Source: Sphingomonas sp. PAMC26645
GTDB lineage: Bacteria > Pseudomonadota > Alphaproteobacteria > Sphingomonadales > Sphingomonadaceae
Length of the DNA: 64,000 bases
Assembly (NCBI RefSeq): GCF_004795835.1
Contig: NZ_CP039249.1
Span: 3,199,001-3,263,000, forward strand
Direction of reading: 5' to 3'
Both the position numbers and the translations under genes were made by a program. A model generated the notes under the pieces. It had not been told where the DNA came from. It saw only the letters and a list, made by a program, of their open reading frames with translations, and made no database searches. Of this stretch, positions 3,078 to 14,958 are shown one piece after another. Each line of letters opens with the position of its first letter. Position 1 is the first letter of the stretch.

Positions 3078-3764
3078 CTAATTCCCGGTCATCGCGTGCG
3101 TATGCAGCATAGCATCGGCGAACATGCGATACCGCTCGAGTACACGCCAGCGGCGATCATGCCCAAGCCGGGGATACAGGCTGTTGAGGCGAGACATGGA
3201 CGGATGGTGAAAATGAAAATCCGGCTCTTTGCCAATGCTTCGGACCGCAAGTTCTGCGGGAGCACTGAAGGCCACGATATGACGACTGTCGGCTAGGTAG
3301 CGGGTCAACCGGTCCAGGTTGCCGACCTCGGTCACCTCCTTGTCCCGGGGCATCGTCCGGCGGTCGCGCGATTTGTAGAGCGAGAACGCAACGGAATTGA
3401 CGATCCGGTAGTCGAGGCGGGACGTCGACGGAAAGACGTCAGGCGCGGCGGCATGCAAATGAACCAGGATGCCATCGATATTGATGCCAGTCTGACCCGC
3501 CGCGGGTCGTCCAGCAATCATCTCAAGCCTTCCCGCCACCGCAAGTACGATAGCCGTGTCGTTTCCTACCGGACCTGGTTGATAATCATGGGACATTGCG
3601 AACAAATGGTTTGTCCGCGAACCGTCAGCAACCATCAGGCCATCGAATTCGAGTTCCTCGATTAACACTCGGACCCGATCGGTCTCACACGGGCCGCCCC
3701 TTTGCCCCTTCGGACTGGCAATCCTCGGCGCATTCACCGAAGCCGGGGCAGGCCCTTGGATCAA
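3078..3764 (-). CDS. uracil-DNA-glycosylase-like superfamily protein
   Basis: This predicted 228-aa protein starts at TTG; internal starts such as the Met at residue 57 are possible. The order of conserved-looking segments resembles the uracil-DNA glycosylase superfamily: AGRPAAGQTG (residues 84-93) in a position like the RPFVGRAG motif of family 4 enzymes, an asparagine in DYRIVNS (N123), a strand HIVAFSAPAELAV, and HHPSMSRLN (186-194) like the HPS motif of UDG motif II. The similarity is weak and by eye only. It is the last gene of a probable three-gene minus-strand unit, 82 bases after the tubulin-like/nuclease gene, which suggests a role in nucleic-acid attack or surveillance. It could instead be an inactive member of the fold. 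Confidence 0.4.
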   Translation of the reverse strand: MIQGPAPASVNAPRIASPKGQRGGPCETDRVRVLIEELEFDGLMVADGSRTNHLFAMSHDYQPGPVGNDTAIVLAVAGRLEMIAGRPAAGQTGINIDGILVHLHAAAPDVFPSTSRLDYRIVNSVAFSLYKSRDRRTMPRDKEVTEVGNLDRLTRYLADSRHIVAFSAPAELAVRSIGKEPDFHFHHPSMSRLNSLYPRLGHDRRWRVLERYRMFADAMLHTHAMTGN

Positions 3765-3846
3765 ACGTTCGGTTTCGCCTCGTGGTATCGACGACCGACC
3801 ACGCCCTAGCTCGCGGACGGCTCGGGTATCGAAACACTCGACGACT

Positions 3847-6090
3847 TCAGTTCGATGTCCAATTGCTGATCTGCCAGCCTGACTGCGTCAGTATGACGTC
3901 GATCACATGCCGTGAAGGATCGCCTTGCTCCGACGTCACGCGAACCACGAGTACCACGTGAATGCCGTCGTAGACCGTCGATACCTGGGTGGCGTCGGCG
4001 TCGATTTCGACTTTCCTGCCATCCGCATTCGAGACGATACCAGCGAGCTGAAGACTGTATCCCCGGGTGGAAACGTCGAAAAGCCTGGCGAAGGCAGCCT
4101 CCGTAATCCGGCTTTTATAGCGTACCTCCTTTCCGTGGAGCGCACGGATCAGATAGGCGTACCGCCGGGCGTAGACCGTCTGCAGCACGTTCAACCGGCT
4201 GACATTGATCGGCAGCCTGCCTTGCAGCACATGCCGGATGTAATCGCCTCGGTACACCGTGCAATCGGTGACGAGAACGATGTCTTCACCGAGACGCCGC
4301 TTAGTCGGAGTGCGCAGTGGACGAGCACCGTCGTCCACGCCGAAGGCCTTGAACTCGGTGAGGATGCGAACATCGCGTCGTGTTACCTCCGCATCGGCGC
4401 GCGTCCCGTCCGGGCTTGTCACTCGCCACCCATGTCCTGTCAGTTCGCGGATGCAGAAATCCGCGAACTCGCTCAACATCAGCGGGCGCCAAGCTACCTG
4501 CTCGAAATGAAGTTCGGCTTTGGCGCCGCGCGGTGCTGGCCAGGTTTGGTGATACGTAAGCGTGAGCTCCGAGAAACCCGCGCGGCGCACCGGCCCCTCC
4601 AAGGCATTGGCCTCGTCCCTGTGCCCGTCTCTCGTGAGGACGAGGTTCAGGCGCGTTCTCGCAGTGCGGTCCAGCGTGAAGGCCGTTGCCCCTCCAAGAG
4701 CATAATCGAACAGCCTCGGTGCCGAGAGCACTCCGCTGGAACTTATCGAACTCAAGACGTGGACGGGCAGTCCCTCGGTTGCGGACATGGAAAGCCCGTC
4801 GATTGACTCCACCTTGCCGGCCTGCAGCGCGGATATGAGGTACTTCAGGCGTGCGGCTGAGGCATCGCATGAGCGTGAAGGTCCGTAAGGCAGACCGTAC
4901 CGGAGATGGGGGCTGTGATCGCTGAGCAGGAAAACCGCCTCGAACCCGGTGGCGAACGAAGACAGGAGTTCCTCGTATTCGTTGGACGATCGCGAAAGTG
5001 CCGGATCGGGAAGGTGAGGTATAACGGCAAGGCAGCGGTACCGGCGGGAGTCGACCGTCCGTGCCAGTCGCACAGCGGCTCTGGCGACATTCCTTTCGCC
5101 CGCGCTCGCGCCAAACACGAACAGCAGATCCGGACGTTCCGCCTCGAACGTGAGGGGCAGTTCGGGATCGATATCCGCCAGCTCGGCGTCACCCTCGAAG
5201 AATAGCCTATCGGCCTCCCAAACCGTCAAGGTAGATGCAGGCCGTTCATGTGCATCGCGGGCAACGCCTACGACTTTACTACCGCCGACTTCCGGAATCC
5301 TGACCAGCCGGTCCACGACCTGCTGGGCTCGCGAACCCACCGCGACCACGACCGGCATGACGGTCGGCTCCCATGCGTCGCCCCCGGTGAAGCGCTCGTC
5401 GGCTATCATCTCCAACGGATTATTCAGGCCGAAGGCGTGACGCACGTCCGCGGTATCGCCGTCGATGTCCAGCAACGCCGATGGGTGGGCCTGGAGGGTT
5501 TCAAACAGGTCGTGCGCGAACGAGACGACGAGAGCTTCACCATCGACGTCGATGCCCACGTCTCGACCGAGGTCGTTGATGGCCTCGATCCCGTGCTTCC
5601 GGATCGCACGTGCGACAGACCGTCTTATCTCGGCGGGCAGTACGATCACATCGCGCCAGGCTGTGGCGCTGCTAGGTGATACTGCGGCCAGATGATCGAA
5701 CGAAGCGCGCCACGCAGCACTCCGGTCATCCGCCATTGCGCAGAAGTCAGCGGCCTGAAGCCTGAGAAGTGGATCCGCGATCCCGTGAACCCGTTCGCGC
5801 AACCAGCCGACCAGTTCGCCGCGTGGGCCGACGTACGGCGGCTGATCGGCAAACGCGTATCCCCACAACGCCTCGTCACCGATGCGCAGTTCGTCCTGTC
5901 GATCAGGTTCGGCCGCGATCATTGCTGAGTCGACGGTGCGGAACCCCATCACATGATCGTCCGTCCCGATGACCTGGGTAAGCGACTCGTTGCTAGTCTT
6001 GGTCCGAAAGACCAGCAGCACGAAGCCGGGCTGATCGGTGACGGGCCGGATGTACCCGATCAGTTTGGCGGCATCGGTTGTCACCAGCAT
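3847..6090 (-). CDS. FtsZ/tubulin-like domain fused to PD-(D/E)XK nuclease-like domain
   Basis: This is a 747-aa protein with no family name I can give. Residues about 245-480 follow an FtsZ/tubulin-like Rossmann pattern: VMPVVVAVGSRAQQVVDRL at the first nucleotide-binding strand, then DLLFVFGASAGERNVARAAV (321-340), where FtsZ has its GGGTGTG loop, and LAVIPHLPD and FEAVFLLSD strands after it. The glycine loop is degenerate (GASAGER), so GTP binding may be altered or lost. Residues about 541-615 look like a restriction-endonuclease core: GWRV, D566 in RADAEV, and E579-x-K581 in LTEFKAF, followed by the strand EDIVLVTD. The start overlaps the end of the upstream ART-like gene by 10 bases. I infer a conflict or defence role; this is not proven. 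Confidence 0.5.
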   Translation of the reverse strand: MLVTTDAAKLIGYIRPVTDQPGFVLLVFRTKTSNESLTQVIGTDDHVMGFRTVDSAMIAAEPDRQDELRIGDEALWGYAFADQPPYVGPRGELVGWLRERVHGIADPLLRLQAADFCAMADDRSAAWRASFDHLAAVSPSSATAWRDVIVLPAEIRRSVARAIRKHGIEAINDLGRDVGIDVDGEALVVSFAHDLFETLQAHPSALLDIDGDTADVRHAFGLNNPLEMIADERFTGGDAWEPTVMPVVVAVGSRAQQVVDRLVRIPEVGGSKVVGVARDAHERPASTLTVWEADRLFFEGDAELADIDPELPLTFEAERPDLLFVFGASAGERNVARAAVRLARTVDSRRYRCLAVIPHLPDPALSRSSNEYEELLSSFATGFEAVFLLSDHSPHLRYGLPYGPSRSCDASAARLKYLISALQAGKVESIDGLSMSATEGLPVHVLSSISSSGVLSAPRLFDYALGGATAFTLDRTARTRLNLVLTRDGHRDEANALEGPVRRAGFSELTLTYHQTWPAPRGAKAELHFEQVAWRPLMLSEFADFCIRELTGHGWRVTSPDGTRADAEVTRRDVRILTEFKAFGVDDGARPLRTPTKRRLGEDIVLVTDCTVYRGDYIRHVLQGRLPINVSRLNVLQTVYARRYAYLIRALHGKEVRYKSRITEAAFARLFDVSTRGYSLQLAGIVSNADGRKVEIDADATQVSTVYDGIHVVLVVRVTSEQGDPSRHVIDVILTQSGWQISNWTSN

Positions 6091-6881
6091 TTGACGCCAT
6101 TGTGCCGCCCTGAATACAGATCGCGACAGATGTCGTAGATCTGACCGACCATGTTGTCGGGGCTGTGCCGCGAAACGGTATCGAATGGAAGAACCAACGC
6201 GCCAAGCTCATCCACCCGTCTCCGAACGGGCTCGCTTGCGAAATTCGAAGGTAGAATGACCGCAGTCAGGTTGCCGGCAAGCGGTATGGATTGGGGCATC
6301 TGCACTTCGATGGCGGAATGCCGTTCGTCGAATGGCCCGTTCGCCTTCGCGCGGATCAATTCGGCATACGATTTCGCCTCGAAATCGAAGGGATCCAGGT
6401 CCATCGCCCGAGCACCTCTATTGTCGAAGTACGCGCGAGGGTCGGACCAGAACAGGTTCATCAGGCGGCCCGGCATGGTCGGGTCCACATCCAGTTCGAA
6501 ATCCTCCTTGATCATGTCGCGATGAACGAAATCGGCAAAACGTCCCTGGTGGAACGCACCGCTGTCGAACGGGTATATGCGCTTCGCCCCCTTTGCCGAA
6601 TTGCGCAGCACGAAGCAGACGGGATAGTACGCTTCGAGACCGCTGGACTCGACCTGGGCGGCGACGCGGTAGGCCGGCCGACCGTAGAAGAGATACAGCA
6701 ACGGTTCGTCGAACACCCGGCACTGCGTCGGCCTCAGGCTTCCCGCCTCGGCGATGTCCCGGAGGTGGTAGGCGTCGCTCAGGTGCGTCATGGGAAGCTG
6801 CTGCTCGATCGGAGGCGACTGGCGAACCAATCGTGCGAAATCCGCTCGCCCCGGCCGGCGCGGGGAACGTTGGCCACTCAT
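6081..6881 (-). CDS. ADP-ribosyltransferase-like protein
   Basis: This predicted 266-aa protein has features of DarT/PARP-type ADP-ribosyltransferases. There is an N-terminal Thr-His (32-33) followed by LRDIAEAGSLRP, reminiscent of the NAD-binding 'H...I...G.L' segment. A tyrosine-rich strand LLYLFYGRPAYR ends near residue 72. The strand ERHSAIEVQMPQSIPL carries Glu192, where DarT-like enzymes have their catalytic glutamate before a 'VPL' element. These are pattern matches by eye. It overlaps the FtsZ-like/nuclease gene by 10 bases, implying translational coupling, and faces the adenine methyltransferase across about 200 bases. An internal start at Met31 is possible. Confidence 0.45.
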   Translation of the reverse strand: MSGQRSPRRPGRADFARLVRQSPPIEQQLPMTHLSDAYHLRDIAEAGSLRPTQCRVFDEPLLYLFYGRPAYRVAAQVESSGLEAYYPVCFVLRNSAKGAKRIYPFDSGAFHQGRFADFVHRDMIKEDFELDVDPTMPGRLMNLFWSDPRAYFDNRGARAMDLDPFDFEAKSYAELIRAKANGPFDERHSAIEVQMPQSIPLAGNLTAVILPSNFASEPVRRRVDELGALVLPFDTVSRHSPDNMVGQIYDICRDLYSGRHNGVKCW

Positions 6882-7081
6882 GGGCGGCAAGTTGGAACGC
6901 GGTCGCATTCAGGCCGCATAGGCGGTTCCAGGGCCGAGATCGACATCGATCGTTGGGCGACCTTCGTGGCGAATCCCACGATCTACCGCCGCAGGGTTTT
7001 CGGTGAGACCGGCAACCTACCCGCCGGCTGCCATGGCGGGCCGTGATTGACGACATCGCGGAAACCTGCGATGACGCGGAC

Positions 7082-7801
7082 ATGTCGGACATCACCACGC
7101 TCTCCCGATATCCCGGCGGAAAGGGCCTCGCCTTTCGCGAAATCATCAATCTGATGCCGCCGCACGAGCGCTACATCGAAACGCACCTCGGCTCCGGAGC
7201 AGTCTATCGCAACAAGCGTCCAGCCGACGCCAGCGTCGGCATCGACCTCGATCCGAACGTGATCGCACGCTGGCGGTCGAACGCGCTGGGACACGGCATA
7301 CGGGTGATCGAAGGCGACGCCGTGTCGATACTTCCCGAATTGTCCCCCGCTCCCGGCGACCTCGTCTATTGCGACCCCCCATACCATCCCGATACGCGGC
7401 GGCGCGGGCGCTGCTATCAATACGACTACGACGTTCCTGAGCACGAGCGACTGCTGTCGCTCCTCGTCCGGTTGCCCTGCCCCGTAGTCGTCAGCGGGTA
7501 TCGGAGCGAGCTGTACGACGACGTGCTATCGGTATGGACCCGTACGGACTACCAGACGCTCACCCACACCGGACAAGTCACAGAGTCCGCCTGGACGAAT
7601 TTTCGGCCCGGACCTCCGCTGCACGACTATCGCCATATCGGCAGCGACTTCCGCGAACGCGAGCAGCTTCGCCGCCGCGCGTCATCACTGTCCCGGCGCA
7701 TCGCTCGCGCCGCGCCTATGGAACTGCACGCGGCTCTGGCCAATCTGGCCGCCGCCCATCCCGAAGCGGTGCTGGCTGCAGCGGAAAGGATACGCCGGTG
7801 A
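7082..7801 (+). CDS. D12-class DNA adenine N6-methyltransferase
   Basis: This 239-aa enzyme transfers a methyl group from S-adenosylmethionine to adenine N6 in DNA. The N-terminal YPGGKGLAFREIINLMPP and the HLGSGAVYRN segment (35-44) form the AdoMet site of the D12/Dam class, and the catalytic DPPY lies at residues 98-101 after DLVY. A GTG 39 bases upstream is in frame; the ATG was chosen because the conserved N-terminus begins right after it. It is divergent from the ART-like/nuclease-like unit. A methylase beside a putative nuclease suggests self-marking, but it could also be a solitary methylase. Confidence 0.85.
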   Translation: MSDITTLSRYPGGKGLAFREIINLMPPHERYIETHLGSGAVYRNKRPADASVGIDLDPNVIARWRSNALGHGIRVIEGDAVSILPELSPAPGDLVYCDPPYHPDTRRRGRCYQYDYDVPEHERLLSLLVRLPCPVVVSGYRSELYDDVLSVWTRTDYQTLTHTGQVTESAWTNFRPGPPLHDYRHIGSDFREREQLRRRASSLSRRIARAAPMELHAALANLAAAHPEAVLAAAERIRR

Positions 7802-8169: not shown

Positions 8170-8367
8170 ATGTCCAAGAGGAAGTCCTTGATCAAGAAGA
8201 CACTCAAGACCGGATCCAGCGGCTCTGCCGGACGGGTCCTTGTAACCTCGAACAAACGCAGCGCCATCAATCCCGGCCCCTCCAAGGAGGCCATGACCAA
8301 GATCGAGCGCTTCGAAGCGTCCAGTTCGCGCGCCGAGCAACGGCTCGGCCTGATCCGGCTCGCCTGA
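8170..8367 (+). CDS. small basic protein, unknown
   Basis: This is a 65-aa Lys/Arg/Ser-rich protein (MSKRKSLIKKTLKTGSSGSA at the N-terminus) with no cysteines, membrane segment or recognisable domain. A good ribosome-binding site (AGGAAGAA, about 7 bases ahead) supports translation. Its stop lies 19 bases before the start of the C39-like peptidase gene, so the two probably form an operon. It could be a peptidase substrate, regulator or nucleic-acid-binding partner; nothing in the sequence decides this. Confidence 0.55.
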   Translation: MSKRKSLIKKTLKTGSSGSAGRVLVTSNKRSAINPGPSKEAMTKIERFEASSSRAEQRLGLIRLA

Positions 8368-8386: not shown

Positions 8387-10024
8387 GTGCAATGCGAATA
8401 CGGCTATGCCGAACTGACCGATGACGCGGAGTGGAAGAGCTTCCGTCGCGAGCTGGATCCCGATGGCTCGAGCCTGATCATCAAGAATCTGTTGAGCATG
8501 CTTCGGGACGCTGGCGCCGTGTTCGCCATCGAGGAGACCACCTACATCGATAGGGACTTCTCGGCAGCTTACGCCAGCTTCTACTCGACGCTCTACCACA
8601 TGCGTCCGCGGTATTGTCGCCGGATCCACTTCTTCGCGTCATCCGTATCGGACGCCTTCGACGACGGCGATCTCACGGGAATAGCACACGCGCTGGAAGC
8701 CGCCGAAGGCGGATATCTCGGGTTCATCGTGATCCGACCCTTGCGGCACGCCCCCGTCGGCAGCGCAGTGTTGGCCACTAGGTGCGCCGCCGGGCCGGGC
8801 GTCGAGATCTCGGTCCGGTCGACGTACAAGGTCCACTTCCTCGGTGTAGAACTGAGCGTGGAGGGCGTGCCGGTCACGGAGCAGGACACCCGCACGGGCA
8901 GCTGCGCGCAGGCTACGATATGGACCGCAGGTCGGCATTTCCACAACCAGCACTCGACGCCCTGGTTCTCGGTGCCCGACATCACCGAGGCGGCACTTAA
9001 ACCCACCGACTCGATCCTCGCGAAATCACTTCCGGCAGGCTCCGACTACCTGACCGATGACAACATGGTGCGCGCGCTGCGCGCCATGGGCGAGCATCCC
9101 ATCGTCTACGCACCCGAAGTAGGAGCCGACTGGGAGGAGCCGCCGGCCCGGACGATCGCGCGCTATCTGGATTCGGGCATCCCGGTGATCATCGGACTTC
9201 GGCAGGGCGAGGGCATCGGACATGCCGTAGTCGCCGTCGGTACGGTGATCGCGTCGACCAGAAAATCCCCGGACGGCGACGCGCACATGGCCGACCGGAT
9301 CACGCACCTCATAGTCAACGACGACCAGAACGGGGCCTATCGACGCATCGCCGTCGCGTCTCCGAAAAAGGCCGTTCGCAGCGCCGACTACACGCTCAAG
9401 GACGCCATCTTCCTGCTCGTGCCGCTGCCGAGCAAAGTCTACATGAAGGCCGAGGTCGCCGAGACGATCGCTCGGGACAAGGTGCGGTTCGTCGCCACCA
9501 ATCGGTCCAAGCACATCAAGGAGGCCCGCGCCGACATCAAGCCGGCCGATTGGGCGGTCGACCCCGACTTCTACGCAACGAAGCCGGAACAACTCGTGGC
9601 TCGAACGTATCTGACGCATGGTTGGAAGTACAAGCACCGCCTGATGCGCAACGGCGTGGCCGACGACCTGCGGGAGGAACTCGCGTTCGTTCACCTTCCC
9701 CGCTATGTATGGGTCACCGAATTCTCGCTACCCGAAGACGTGGCCAGTCTCGATCCGTGCCGCAGGAAGATTCGCGCCCACGTCGTTCTGGACGCGACGG
9801 GAAGCCGCTTCGAGGACAGTGTACTCCTCACCCACCTCCCGGGGATCATCATCGGCCAGTCCTTCGACCCCGCCAATCCCGGTGCCGAACCGATGACCAG
9901 CCTTCGCGTTCTGCTGGAGGACGCCCCCTACTATCCCAAGATTCGCGGTATGGCGGACTTTACCGCATGCGAGCCGGAGACCGTGACGCCCGCGAACGAC
10001 GCAGGGGGACAGATAGCAGCATAG
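8387..10024 (+). CDS. papain/C39-like cysteine peptidase domain protein
   Basis: This 545-aa protein begins at GTG. A central domain shows the papain-fold signature in the right order: Gln166 and Cys173 in EQDTRTGSCAQATIW, His279 in GEGIGHAVVAVGT, and Asp312/Asp313 in LIVNDDQNGAYR. That layout resembles C39-like or transglutaminase-like cysteine peptidases. The N-terminal 150 residues and the C-terminal 190 residues are not recognisable; the latter contain YLTHGWKYKHRLM and LPGIIIGQSFDP. There is no signal peptide or membrane helix, so it probably acts in the cytoplasm. It follows the small basic protein closely and lies beside the putative nuclease/methylase locus, so a protease-effector role in defence is a reasonable inference. 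Confidence 0.6.
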   Translation: MQCEYGYAELTDDAEWKSFRRELDPDGSSLIIKNLLSMLRDAGAVFAIEETTYIDRDFSAAYASFYSTLYHMRPRYCRRIHFFASSVSDAFDDGDLTGIAHALEAAEGGYLGFIVIRPLRHAPVGSAVLATRCAAGPGVEISVRSTYKVHFLGVELSVEGVPVTEQDTRTGSCAQATIWTAGRHFHNQHSTPWFSVPDITEAALKPTDSILAKSLPAGSDYLTDDNMVRALRAMGEHPIVYAPEVGADWEEPPARTIARYLDSGIPVIIGLRQGEGIGHAVVAVGTVIASTRKSPDGDAHMADRITHLIVNDDQNGAYRRIAVASPKKAVRSADYTLKDAIFLLVPLPSKVYMKAEVAETIARDKVRFVATNRSKHIKEARADIKPADWAVDPDFYATKPEQLVARTYLTHGWKYKHRLMRNGVADDLREELAFVHLPRYVWVTEFSLPEDVASLDPCRRKIRAHVVLDATGSRFEDSVLLTHLPGIIIGQSFDPANPGAEPMTSLRVLLEDAPYYPKIRGMADFTACEPETVTPANDAGGQIAA

Positions 10025-10101: not shown

Positions 10102-10815
10102 TCAGGCGGAGAGTGCCCGCCAGACCAGTGCGCCGACATCTGGATTGGCGACGTCGCTGTGCCCACCAATGATCGCGTCGCACAGGACGTTGTTCACCTT
10201 TGCGCACACTAGATCCGGTGTTTCGCCCACAGTCGCGACATGAACGACGGCCTCGCCGTCGTTCATCGCCAAAGCGCCGTTCGCGCCGAGCCCGCCATGC
10301 AGATCGGCAGGTCCGCCGACCAGACGACTGGTGACCATGCCCTTCGCGATCTCACCACTCACCGATGATGCAATCGCATAGAATATCCCGACGGCCGTGT
10401 CCCGACGGGTGTGCGTCACCATGATGGGTCCCGAGACGACCCCGTCGGCCACGACCCTCCGGAACCCACCATCGATTTTGCGCCGCCCGATGCCGGTGCC
10501 GAAGGCGTTGTGCGAGAAGGCGGCTTGCAGAAGGGAAAGCGAGCGTACGGGAGTTCGCATCGCGGACGCCGTCGATGTCACGAGGCGACCGCCGAAACTG
10601 TGCCCAACGAGATGCACCCTGACGCCTTGCGGCACCTCCCTGTCGATCACCGCGGCAAGCGCCGCTCCGATCGTCCCGGCTCGCGCCTTCATCTCGAAGT
10701 AGGTCGCCTGGTTGAGCATCGACGCCACCGCCGCCCGACCGCCCGAGAGCAGGCGCCAGCCGCCGCCGATCCTCGCCGCGCCAATCCCCGACGCCCCGCC
10801 CACCGCCATGGCGGC
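10102..10815 (-). pseudogene. alpha/beta hydrolase, 5'-truncated
   Basis: The C-terminal 235 residues or so of an alpha/beta hydrolase are recognisable. The nucleophile elbow VRVHLVGHSFGGRLVTSTAS is intact, preceded by SGGRAAVASMLNQATYFEMK and followed by a late strand with aspartate (THTRRD) and a terminal histidine segment (GGHSDVANPDVGALVW). Upstream of about 10815 the frame stays open to 11115, but its translation is simply the reverse reading of tniB, so the genuine 5' end is missing. The gene probably makes no functional product unless the chimeric frame is translated. Confidence 0.6.
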
Positions 10816-10819
10816 ATCG

Positions 10820-11245
10820 ACGGTGTTCCTCGACGCAGGTATCGTACCGATCGTCTTCGCAGGCAACGAGAAGTCGAAGCACTTCTTCGAAAAGAACGAG
10901 CAGCTGTGCGCGCGCCTGGGCCGTCCGTTGGAACTGACCCCACTGACCAGGACGGAACCTCGTGACAGAACGCTGTTCAAGACGTTCTGTCGGGATCTCG
11001 ACGCCGCGCTCGTCAACAACGGCGTGGTGCGGTCGATCTCCGGCTTGAGTGACACGGTGCCGCTCTCGGGACTCATGGCCGCCTCGGGCGGCCGTGTCGG
11101 TCGTGTCGTCCGCATCGTCGAGGCGGCAATGGAACATGCCGTGTCACGCGATGCCGACAGGGTCGAGCTCTACGATCTCTCCCATGCCGTCCAGACCTTC
11201 GCGATGCCCCAGCGTTACATCAACAAGAACCCCTTCGCGAAATGA
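10820..11245 (+). pseudogene. tniB: tniB transposition ATPase, 5'-truncated remnant
   Basis: About 140 C-terminal residues match TniB-type AAA+ ATPases of Tn5053/Tn402-like transposons: GIVPIVFAGNEKSKHFF, LTPLTRTEPRDRTLFKTF, and SGGRVGRVVRIVEAAME in the sensor-2 region. The Walker A and B motifs and the whole N-terminal half are absent, because the sequence switches near 10810-10820 to the antisense of a hydrolase gene. Its stop overlaps the start of tniQ (ATGA), the normal tniB-tniQ arrangement. No tniA transposase is present upstream. The remnant is therefore not expected to support transposition by itself. Confidence 0.65.
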
Positions 11246-13299
11246 CGCAGTCACCATCAGCGTCGCAAGCGGTCAACGAGTCGGCGCTCCCGATCATTCG
11301 ACCGCTCGTGATCCCCGTATCTCCCGCGGACGATGCGAGCCTGATCGGCCTCATCGCCTCCGCCACCGCGGACAACGTCCTGTGTCACACGAGCATCATC
11401 ACCAGTGAAGTGGGCCTGAACCTGTCGAAGCCGGGGCTCGTCGGCCAGCACGTCGAACCCCTGCTCAATCGGCTTGCCCGCAAAATCGGTTGCAACGCCG
11501 AGGACCTCAAACACCGGGTGCATCCCTACACGCCGCAAGCGGCAGCCGAGAGCAAGAACAAGTCCGCGAATTGGCATTGGACCGTCCGTTGGGGCTCGGG
11601 ATCGCTCTATCGGCACCATCTCCTGCTCGAGCGGCGCCGGATCGCGCCGATAACGCTGGAGTCATCACGCCACCATCGGTGGCAGTGGCTTTGTGCGCTC
11701 CTGCCGTATTGCCCCGTCAGTCTCGAACGCCTCGTCGACGAATGCGGCGCTTGCGGCGCTGCATTGGGTTGGAAGCGGTCACGAGGCATTGGGCGCTGCG
11801 AGTCCTGCCGTCAGACGGTCGCGCCATCGGAGGCCCCGGCCCTCCGCAACGAACTTGCCGAAGACTATAGGAGATTCGCGCGCCTGATCTCCCCCACCCC
11901 TGGAGAGAGGGAAGAACAGCTAGCCAGCCTTCACGAGGACTTGAGGGCCCTGAGTCCGCCATCGCTCGTGCTGTTCGTTACACGCATCGGCTGGCTGTTG
12001 GGTGAGCGCGCCGCCGATCCCTGGTCGTTCTCGCCTACATCCCTCGATCAGCCCGCGCTCGCCGAAGCGGTATCCGTTGGCATGGCTACGCTGCCGGATT
12101 GGCCCAAACGCCTCAGGTCCCGCATCGCGGCCGCGATGGCTGGAAGCGTGGGTGACGAGCGTACCGAAATGCTGAGGCGCATCCGCAAACTCGCGGATCG
12201 CTACTCACCCTCCGATCTCGCGCAACTGGTGCGCAAAGCGCTACCCGAGGCCTTCGAGATCACGCAACGCGCACTCTCCCTCGACATGCCGACGATGCTC
12301 TCCTGCGACATATGCAAGCTCACGGGAATCGATGCCAAGGACGTCCGGCGGCTCGAGGAGGCGCGCGTGTTCGATACCATCGAGACGCGTGGCGGCCAAC
12401 GCCGCCACATCCAGTTCTCGAAGGCGCAGGTGCAGGATTTCGCGAAGCATAAGAAGGAGTCCGAGCGCGCGACAAGGCTCGCCGAAGCCCTCGGCCTTCC
12501 GAGATATGCCGTGGAGCAACTGATCGGTTACGGCGAAGTGACGTTGGAAACTCACCCCGCAGTCCTCGTGCTGGACCACAACGTCCGGCTGGTGACGAGC
12601 ACGGTCGACGATCTCTTTAGCGATCTCAACCAGTCCGCGCGGCGCGAACGCCCCCCGAAGAACGCCGTGTCCCTCTGGAACGCGTCCAGGACCGTAGGTG
12701 GCATCATGAAGAACTGGGGCGAGGTCGTACACTTACTTCGTCGCAAGAGGATACGATACTGGCTCGTCGCCGATGAGCATCGTTCACGCGACAGGCGCTC
12801 GAAGTACGTCCGACGCGTGCTCGTCATCCCGGAAGAGGTGATCCGGGCGTTACGCGAGCCCATTGATCCGCATCGGATGAGAAACGTACCGATCGCAACC
12901 GTCATGTCGCAGATCGACGCCGCCGAACTGCTCAACATCGATCCTGTGCAGATGAAGCGGGTGATGGACGCCGGGGATCTCGCATTCGAGAAGGAGGGCA
13001 AAGCAATCTGGTTCAAGACAGCCGACGTCCTGGATCTGGCGAAATCCTACATATCAAGCCCCGAGCTGGCGCATCTCCTCGGCGGATACGGTCCGATGGT
13101 CACAAAGATGCTCTATAAGCGCGACGACATACGTCGCGGTAGCGCGGGATGGCTACGCGCAGACGTGATCGACAAATACGACAGTTTGAAAGTCGGTGCC
13201 GAGCCGGTTCTCCGTCGCTGGACGGGGCCTGGCGGAAATTTCGATCCTTCGTCGCGGAATAGATCAAGATCAGGCCAGCGGCGAGCACTTGATACCTAA
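11242..13299 (+). CDS. tniQ: TniQ-family transposition target protein
   Basis: This 685-aa protein is a TniQ/TnsD-family member, the factor that helps Tn7- and Tn5053-like elements choose target sites. The N-terminal half has the family's region rich in His, Trp and Arg and a zinc ribbon with Cys168-x2-Cys171 and Cys186-x2-Cys189, preceded by LLPYCPVSLERL. The C-terminal half has several helix-turn-helix-like segments (AEALGLPRYAVEQLIGYGEV, ISSPELAHLLGGYGPMVTKM) suited to DNA binding. It overlaps the tniB remnant by four bases. It is open full length, although its partner genes are broken or missing, so its function may be lost or repurposed. Confidence 0.75.
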   Translation: MTQSPSASQAVNESALPIIRPLVIPVSPADDASLIGLIASATADNVLCHTSIITSEVGLNLSKPGLVGQHVEPLLNRLARKIGCNAEDLKHRVHPYTPQAAAESKNKSANWHWTVRWGSGSLYRHHLLLERRRIAPITLESSRHHRWQWLCALLPYCPVSLERLVDECGACGAALGWKRSRGIGRCESCRQTVAPSEAPALRNELAEDYRRFARLISPTPGEREEQLASLHEDLRALSPPSLVLFVTRIGWLLGERAADPWSFSPTSLDQPALAEAVSVGMATLPDWPKRLRSRIAAAMAGSVGDERTEMLRRIRKLADRYSPSDLAQLVRKALPEAFEITQRALSLDMPTMLSCDICKLTGIDAKDVRRLEEARVFDTIETRGGQRRHIQFSKAQVQDFAKHKKESERATRLAEALGLPRYAVEQLIGYGEVTLETHPAVLVLDHNVRLVTSTVDDLFSDLNQSARRERPPKNAVSLWNASRTVGGIMKNWGEVVHLLRRKRIRYWLVADEHRSRDRRSKYVRRVLVIPEEVIRALREPIDPHRMRNVPIATVMSQIDAAELLNIDPVQMKRVMDAGDLAFEKEGKAIWFKTADVLDLAKSYISSPELAHLLGGYGPMVTKMLYKRDDIRRGSAGWLRADVIDKYDSLKVGAEPVLRRWTGPGGNFDPSSRNRSRSGQRRALDT

Positions 13300-14490: not shown

Positions 14491-14958
14491 TCAAGCCAGA
14501 ACGAATATCGTCAACCCGCGAATCCCTGTTGATTCAATCATCCATGTTTTCAGGCATGGGACAGTCCCACCGGGTCGTTCGTCGTTAGTAGCGATCCTTC
14601 GGGTAGCGTCAGCGACGCTGGCCTGCGAGTTGCCGCCATCGGCGTTGCAGGTCTGGATGACGGTGTCGATCGCCTGGCACGATAGTCGCACCTCTCCAAA
14701 CCGGCGAAAAGCCAGTCTCATCATTCGAAACGACGTCGCGCGGCGGACATCCGAAGATACTACTCTCGATCTTGAAGCGCCTTCCATCATCGATGCGACG
14801 CGATGTCCTCCTCGCCTCGTGCCGCGGATTATCGTCGCGCCTATGCGAAGTTTGGTGACCCGGAGCCGTGCCGCGTCAAATAGCTCGCGCAGCGCATCCA
14901 GCTGCAGCTTCATACGGCTCGACCGAGTCGCCAGGCGCACGGCAGGAAGTCGCCGCAA
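14491..14958 (-). CDS. hypothetical protein, doubtful or decayed
   Basis: This possible 155-aa protein is rich in Arg (RLRVTKLRIGATIIRGTRRG) and has no domain I recognise. Its plus-strand counterpart of 209 aa looks less protein-like, so the minus-strand frame is the better candidate, but both may be chance. It lies upstream of the membrane protein gene on the same strand. Confidence 0.2.
   Translation of the reverse strand: MRRLPAVRLATRSSRMKLQLDALRELFDAARLRVTKLRIGATIIRGTRRGGHRVASMMEGASRSRVVSSDVRRATSFRMMRLAFRRFGEVRLSCQAIDTVIQTCNADGGNSQASVADATRRIATNDERPGGTVPCLKTWMIESTGIRGLTIFVLA

Follow-up and report, generated by a model that had tools for sequence, protein, structure and literature searches.

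The DarTG toxin–antitoxin and phage-defence system ADP-ribosylates thymidines in single-stranded DNA, and plant NLR receptors carry integrated decoy domains. VMAP-ternary and related systems were reportedly described by Kaur et al. in 2020. CmdTAC comprises three genes including one for a chaperone, and is not known to contain fused copies of host proteins. The relevant articles present CmdTAC as an anti-phage system with an ADP-ribosyltransferase (ART) (PMC11618068), the DarTG antitoxins DarG2 and DarG1 as having a macrodomain and a YbiA-like fold, respectively (PMC9967889), and FtsZ/tubulin and FGE-type domains as rare components of VMAP-ternary and related systems (PMC7159879).

In the window, i.e. 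the whole 64,000-nt stretch of DNA that was analysed, an ART gene and its partner, both real genes, represent a bacterial module of two genes that has not been described before and is present there once (Table 1). The partner lay directly after the ART gene at 75/80, 19/19 and 8/8 loci in three locus sets, the partner ORF being absent from 5 of the first 80. Overlap of the two genes was found in 84 of 101 pairs, extending over 1–20 nt in 66 of the 84 and over exactly 4 nt in 30. Such regular pairing of two overlapping or adjacent genes is a trait of type II toxin–antitoxin systems. BLASTP linked 71 of the first 75 partners, with links between groups confined to the first ~190 residues, and this N-terminal domain is common to partners with unrelated C-termini. 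The module was also present in 12 plasmid records and at 5 viral-contig loci.

Table 1. Positions of the two genes and of the regions of P0002 within the window
Feature	Position	Strand	Basis or remark
ART-fold gene, P0001, 275 aa	6081..6908	-	AF2 model, best folds, family residue counts
Partner gene, P0002, 747 aa	3847..6090	-	10-nt overlap with ART gene
P0002, conserved N-terminal adaptor domain	5401..6090	-	Residues ~1-190, up to 230 in window copy
P0002, FtsZ/CetZ/tubulin-fold domain (pseudo-FtsZ)	4477..5367	-	Residues 242-538; without GGGTGTG box
P0002, region called PD-(D/E)XK-like in the sequence-only reading	4171..4476	-	Residues 539-640; by-eye call, unconfirmed
P0002, C-terminal alpha/beta stretch including stop codon	3847..4170	-	Residues 641-747; model secondary structure

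The AF2 model of P0001 (pLDDT 90.3) had DarT, Tpt1 and SopF as its best fold matches; on this modelling evidence the protein has an ADP-ribosyltransferase fold, in agreement with an earlier by-eye call. Residues H42, R77, D115, G117, D194 and E201 are kept across the family (residue counts over 102 ARTs; 195 database matches to P0001), and because these active-site-like positions are conserved we infer that the family probably has ADP-ribosyltransferase activity. The true start of P0001 may be internal, the database copy having 249 aa. An ART-fold toxin is thus shared with DarTG at the level of the model, but P0001 differs from DarT in sequence, as there was no match to the Pfam DarT family (PF14487) at E <= 1 and an hhalign comparison with five DarT proteins gave only E 0.27 over 12 columns. 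Neither a macrodomain (DarG2) nor a YbiA-like (DarG1) Pfam family was found in P0002 or in 50 other scanned partners.

A further difference from DarTG lies in the swappable C-termini of the partner. Sixteen of 50 scanned partner C-termini had a Pfam match above cut-off, namely DnaA (3), ribosomal protein S9 (2), FtsZ, peroxiredoxin, SNF2, MTase, monooxygenase, cold-shock, RES, Rel (RelA/SpoT), UvrD-like, FGE and TPR. The other 34 had no such match, so that host mimicry is demonstrated for a minority only. One partner ended in a second ART. ARTs that are 45–60% identical carry partners whose C-termini do not align; judged from these comparisons, the rear of the partner is interchangeable among genomes and the FtsZ-like part of P0002 is one of many such C-termini. 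That part has the FtsZ/CetZ/tubulin fold expected from the sequence-only reading, with the GTP box (GGGTGTG) absent. The nuclease proposed to follow it, based by eye on D..E..EFK and on QCK in a relative, is unproven, with a weak match in one search and no support in another; for the C-terminal stretch, a Pfam match to Gln_deamidase_2 was below cut-off (E 0.09). CmdTAC resembles the module in using an ART effector, there in anti-phage defence, but has three genes with a chaperone and no known host-protein fusions. VMAP-ternary and related systems likewise carry fused domains that vary and include cellular enzymes in inactive form, with the occasional FtsZ/tubulin or FGE-type domain; their core, however, is MoxR-vWA-VMAP or GTPases rather than an ART and the N-terminal domain seen here. 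P0002 had no match to MoxR AAA+ or vWA, and neither 'DnaA' nor 'peroxiredoxin' occurs in the main text of the article on these systems (PMC7159879).

Comparison of fused and host proteins, drawn from the 16 loci with a Pfam-named C-terminus, detected a separate host copy of the fused protein in 8/8 genomes checked, which is a trait of integrated decoys. The fused copy was altered at key residues in all four enzyme pairs with >30% identity; alterations affected the DNA-binding signature of DnaA and the centres of Rel and peroxiredoxin. Pairwise dN/dS between fused and host copies was 0.07, 0.11 and 0.26 for the three pairs with measurable dS. Thus the fused C-terminus in several copies is an altered, apparently disabled version of the cell's own protein. 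In one genome (L016) the host dnaA gene is followed after 37 nt by the start of the module, and the fused dnaA copy comes after that.

The explanation that we prefer, and to which we give an even chance, is a toxin–antitoxin-type intracellular immune module in which an ART effector is restrained by an adaptor with an interchangeable bait. The first protein would be the ADP-ribosyltransferase, with a modelled fold and an activity suggested by the conserved positions, and the second its regulator. Since the pairing is constant and the genes overlap, the conserved N-terminal domain of the partner may bind and restrain the ART. The swappable C-terminal domain would then be a sensor, in several copies an apparently disabled look-alike of a cellular protein, presented to proteins of phages or other invaders that target the genuine one; in the window the putative bait is the pseudo-FtsZ. 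Binding or modification of the bait by an invader would lift the restraint, and the freed ART would ADP-ribosylate its target and stop growth. Such an arrangement would work like a plant NLR receptor, where an immune protein is joined to a replica of what a pathogen attacks and this replica acts as the sensor, although NLRs are unrelated eukaryotic proteins whose effector is the NLR assembly and not an ART.

The main rival to a bait is an antitoxin that imitates the target of the ART: the enzyme would modify DnaA, FtsZ, S9, Rel and others, and the C-terminus, as a dead copy of the target, would occupy the toxin with no need to sense an invader. The pairing, overlap and altered copies fit this explanation equally, the nearest ART fold is that of DarT, itself the toxin of a toxin–antitoxin system, several of the fused proteins are essential or abundant in cells, and in one partner (L056) the rear part is a DarG C-terminal domain (58% identity), the region through which DarG directly blocks DarT. 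We nevertheless consider a target mimic unlikely. Similar ARTs have partners with differing C-termini: at 60% identity one partner carries Rel (L108) and the others a C-terminus not aligning to it (L024/L130), at 51% a DnaA-like C-terminus is replaced by another (L034, L023) and at 50% FGE by TPR (L102, L040). Moreover, the conserved N-terminal domain could already do the binding, and the repeat, AAA-like and FGE (lectin-fold) C-termini found among the partners are improbable ART substrates and would make more sense in a sensor than in an imitation of a substrate. Alternatively, in a system for growth control or conflict, the fused copy may join the cell's own assembly (FtsZ ring, DnaA oligomer, ribosome or peroxiredoxin ring) and bring the ART to it. 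Assemblies are indeed formed by many of the proteins found fused, the fused FtsZ retains the C-terminal peptide IEIPAFLR and fused S9 copies end as host S9 does, exactly so in L055; targeting of this kind is, however, improbable given the altered DnaA signature and Rel and peroxiredoxin centres and the monooxygenase, MTase and repeat C-termini, which do not fit.

The sequence-only reading had itself proposed a candidate undescribed conflict system, and such a candidate is present as ART plus partner, but the reading had extended it to four genes with a restriction-type logic, in which the ART, the FtsZ-nuclease and a UDG-like protein (P0003) would act beside a protecting, self-marking adenine methylase (P0004). 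The four genes adjoin in the window and the UDG-like and D12 methylase calls hold. Neither P0003 nor P0004 had a BLASTP homologue (E <= 1e-3) at 80 loci from other genomes, although this search may have overlooked distant UDG or methylase homologues, and the co-conservation of methylase and effector that marks restriction–modification was therefore not seen at these loci. The matches listed for P0003 are on contigs whose lengths differ from those of all five P0002 relatives. The conserved unit is two genes, the UDG-like and methylase genes look like mere neighbours, and a restriction-like system is highly improbable.

Several observations count against a bait. A Lys/Orn monooxygenase would be an odd one, and some fused enzymes keep the motifs checked (SNF2 GLGKT and DEAH, UvrD-like GSGKS and DEVQD, MTase NPPF), as does the fused FtsZ of L044 (GGGTGTG). 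The DarG domain of L056 can be read equally as part of an antitoxin, and the five loci without a partner ORF are also unexpected. Finally, PADLOC assignments count partly for a bait-carrying immune module and partly against it. In its favour, 9 defence names were assigned in 82 genes near the loci and, mad models aside, 6 in 76 genes farther out, while 78 control genes matched only mad2 and mad3; against it, these names show no near–far gradient, and the control genes come from seven genomes, most of which did not supply genes to either of the other two samples.

Extending the bait-carrying adaptor to the whole family, we consider it slightly short of an even chance that these modules are widespread bacterial immune receptors, in which a cell's own genes (dnaA, ftsZ, rpsI, those for peroxiredoxin and relA, and others) have been captured, disabled and joined, as integrated decoys, to an adaptor that restrains the ART; attack on the look-alike would then free a suicidal ART. 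The L016 arrangement would, with the same reservation, be a snapshot of recent dnaA capture. If so, bacteria would have immune sensors built like plant NLR receptors, with dead copies of pathogen targets fused to a trigger, and the baits would form a readable list of invader targets: division, replication initiation, the ribosome, the stringent response and redox enzymes. Even if the partner were instead an antitoxin, this would be a toxin–antitoxin family whose antitoxins contain captured, disabled copies of host proteins that name the targets of the toxin.

The ART gene, encoding the ADP-ribosyltransferase-fold protein P0001, travels with a partner gene, here P0002. P0001 had 195 database matches. 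Scanning 84,980 species genomes gave 92 matching stretches, 85 of them encoding relatives, the best 80 of which were retained. The analysis covered 80 loci in which an ART ORF was present, the window counted in (L033, truncated by a contig end, gave no ART ORF; L004 and L072 contain fragments). Of these, 75 have a partner, defined as an ORF on the same strand, 150 aa or longer, that starts between -200 and +250 bases from the ART stop; L015, L058, L063, L068 and L072 have none by that criterion. A single BLASTP component unites 71 of the 75 partners, with L031, L032, L057 and L070 outside it. Additional loci, drawn from plasmids and viral contigs as well as genomes, carried a partner in 19/19 and 8/8 cases, four of these 27 (L103, L111, L130 and L132) having partners identical to earlier ones. 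The two ORFs overlap in 84 of 101 measured pairs; the overlap is 1-20 nt long in 66 and exactly 4 nt in 30, as measured from first possible start codons, with longer overlaps perhaps overcalled. Members of the ART family were present in 7 of 385 genomes sampled from the class and 12 of 398 sampled from the phylum, the source genome included in each, and record titles of genome-scan matches also include Bacteroidetes, Lachnospiraceae, Ruminococcaceae, Acidobacteria, Verrucomicrobia, Planctomycetota and Chloroflexi. Related modules were seen in four genomes of the phylum (L134-L137, the last three from one genus; the L136 partner is a short form of 291 aa).

Features of the window and Pfam-named C-termini of partners at other loci (L-numbers)
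Feature	Position or locus	Strand	Remark
ART ORF (P0001)	6081-6908	minus	
Partner ORF (P0002)	3847-6090	minus	10-nt overlap with ART ORF
UDG-superfamily gene (P0003)	3078-3764	minus	82 bases past partner ORF; database copy 196 aa
D12-class adenine methylase (P0004)	7082-7801	plus	adjoins module; matches MethyltransfD12
MucR/Ros-like regulator	525-1058	minus	by eye
ArsR-like regulator	2375-2704	plus	by eye
65-aa basic ORF	8170-8367		precedes 545-aa ORF; by eye
545-aa protein	8387-10024	plus	four libraries searched, no family above cut-off
685-aa protein	11242-13299	plus	weak TniQ (PADLOC E 7e-4); HTH_17 just under cut-off
DnaA, full	L016		Pfam
DnaA, partial	L027, L034		Pfam
Ribosomal protein S9	L055, L061		Pfam
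AhpC-type peroxiredoxin	L022		Pfam
SNF2 helicase	L049		Pfam
Eco57I-type methylase	L078		Pfam
TPR	L040		Pfam
Lys/Orn monooxygenase	L019		Pfam
RES	L029		Pfam
FtsZ, both domains	L044		Pfam
Cold-shock domain	L069		Pfam
FGE-sulfatase	L102		Pfam
RelA/SpoT HD + TGS	L108		Pfam
UvrD-like helicase	L112		Pfam

The sequence-only reading had placed the UDG and methylase genes in one system with the other two. Its gene order, UDG-superfamily call (type-4-like by PDB profile matches) and D12 call all held, and the proposed co-occurrence found no support: by BLASTP (E <= 1e-3) against the ORFs of 82 loci and the window, the matches of P0003 were confined to the window and two copies of it from the source genome (L001, L082), those of P0004 to the window, and neither had a homologue in the 80 other-genome loci, a search that remote relatives or genes past the flanks may escape. 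P0003 has just seven database matches, one the window's own, and none of the other six lies on a contig of the same listed size as those of five P0002 relatives; three P0001 matches share listed contig sizes with P0002 relatives (487342, 3417, 6877). The UDG-superfamily gene looks unlinked to the module. For P0001, P0002 and P0003, Pfam and NCBIfam gave nothing above curated cut-offs and PADLOC nothing at E <= 1; in PHROGs a single family came up, for P0002 (E 0.46). Nearby, the 685-aa TniQ-like protein may mark a transposon-borne island.

Different partner groups are homologous in their N-terminal part only (A6 versus A5, columns 9-194, E 1e-21; A8 versus A7, first 95 columns, E 5e-9). A Pfam scan of 50 partners, picked for cluster coverage, named the C-terminus above curated cut-offs in 16 and gave no match above cut-off in the other 34. 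By eye, the L135 partner has an AAA-like stretch and repeats, extended by homology to L134 and L137. A compact partner type of 243-254 aa in Acetobacter and Rhodobacterales (L045, L048, L052, L060, L103) has a conserved tail of about 100 aa of unassigned fold.

Several C-termini resemble the cell's own proteins, and a separate host copy was present in all eight genomes checked of the 16. Identity between fused and separate copies was 73% and 81% for S9 (two loci), 82% for DnaA (L016; DNA 92% over 1052 bases), 71% for FtsZ, 85% for peroxiredoxin and 34% for Rel; both partial DnaA copies reached only 20-21%. In alignment, the fused peroxiredoxin, full DnaA, Rel and FtsZ are changed at known functional sites. 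In peroxiredoxin, PADYTPVCTT became PADYTLVSTT, with loss of the peroxidatic cysteine; in DnaA, GLGKT (Walker A) became GLSKT and GRDHTTV (the DNA-binding signature) GRAPTTV; in Rel, HDTVED, the hydrolase motif, reads HDSLDT, and the NGYRSIHTAV stretch of the synthetase is absent; in FtsZ, VGGGGGN reads VGEGGGN with GGGTGTG retained. The L064 partner carries a second ART-like domain (ART profile, E 3e-27) in which Tyr replaces the conserved His and the DxR stretch is missing. Against a pattern of disabled copies, the motifs examined in the SNF2, UvrD-like and methylase fusions are intact, and S9 is not an enzyme. Pairwise dN/dS was 0.26 (DnaA), 0.07 (peroxiredoxin) and 0.11 (FtsZ), values that average both branches and therefore speak only against free decay of the fold; dS saturation prevented estimates for S9 and Rel. 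An assembly accident is unlikely for the S9 fusion, because it occurs in two genomes whose partners are 59% identical. At L016 the last base of native dnaA is contig base 14889, the ART ORF follows from 14927 in the same orientation, and the fused copy comes after it; L016 (9950-12558) and L087 share this arrangement, the ART ORF starting 37 nt past native dnaA and the partner carrying a second, altered dnaA.

The closest published idea among the sources, as far as their consulted parts go, is the proposed decoy role of inactive enzyme domains found in VMAP-ternary systems and related ones (PMC7159879). A 2025 review of effector-triggered immunity covers guards and decoys, and its sections consulted mention no fused housekeeping-protein copies (PMC12409349). 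Titles and abstract openings of open-licence PMC papers, bioRxiv's own collection lying outside this set, yielded nothing on this module.

Similar ARTs pair with unalignable C-termini, and so a constant ART and N-domain with a replaced C-terminus looks like a sensor swap, as judged from sequence. L108 shares 60% ART identity with L024/L130, yet the L108 partner ends in Rel and the other in a C-terminus without BLASTP alignment to it; further pairs with differing C-terminal groups, as assigned by us, are L034/L023 (51%), L102/L040 (50%), L069/L110 (48%) and L055/L059 (45%), and their partner alignments stop near the N-domain. The partner could instead be a plain antitoxin, perhaps one imitating the ART's target. 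In favour of an antitoxin are the DarT-like fold of the ART (DarTG as described in PMC9967889) and the DarG C-terminal domain of the L056 partner (10759-11907; BLASTP, 58% identity, E 1e-74, aligning solely from residue 193). A sensing role accounts for the repeat, AAA-like and FGE C-termini better than mimicry of an ART substrate would, and we consider the target-mimic antitoxin rather unlikely. That the ART is an effector restrained by an adaptor whose exchangeable C-terminus serves as bait stands at about even chances. The broader reading is in our judgement quite probable: an ART effector under the control of a partner whose C-terminus can be exchanged and is in some cases a disabled copy of a protein.
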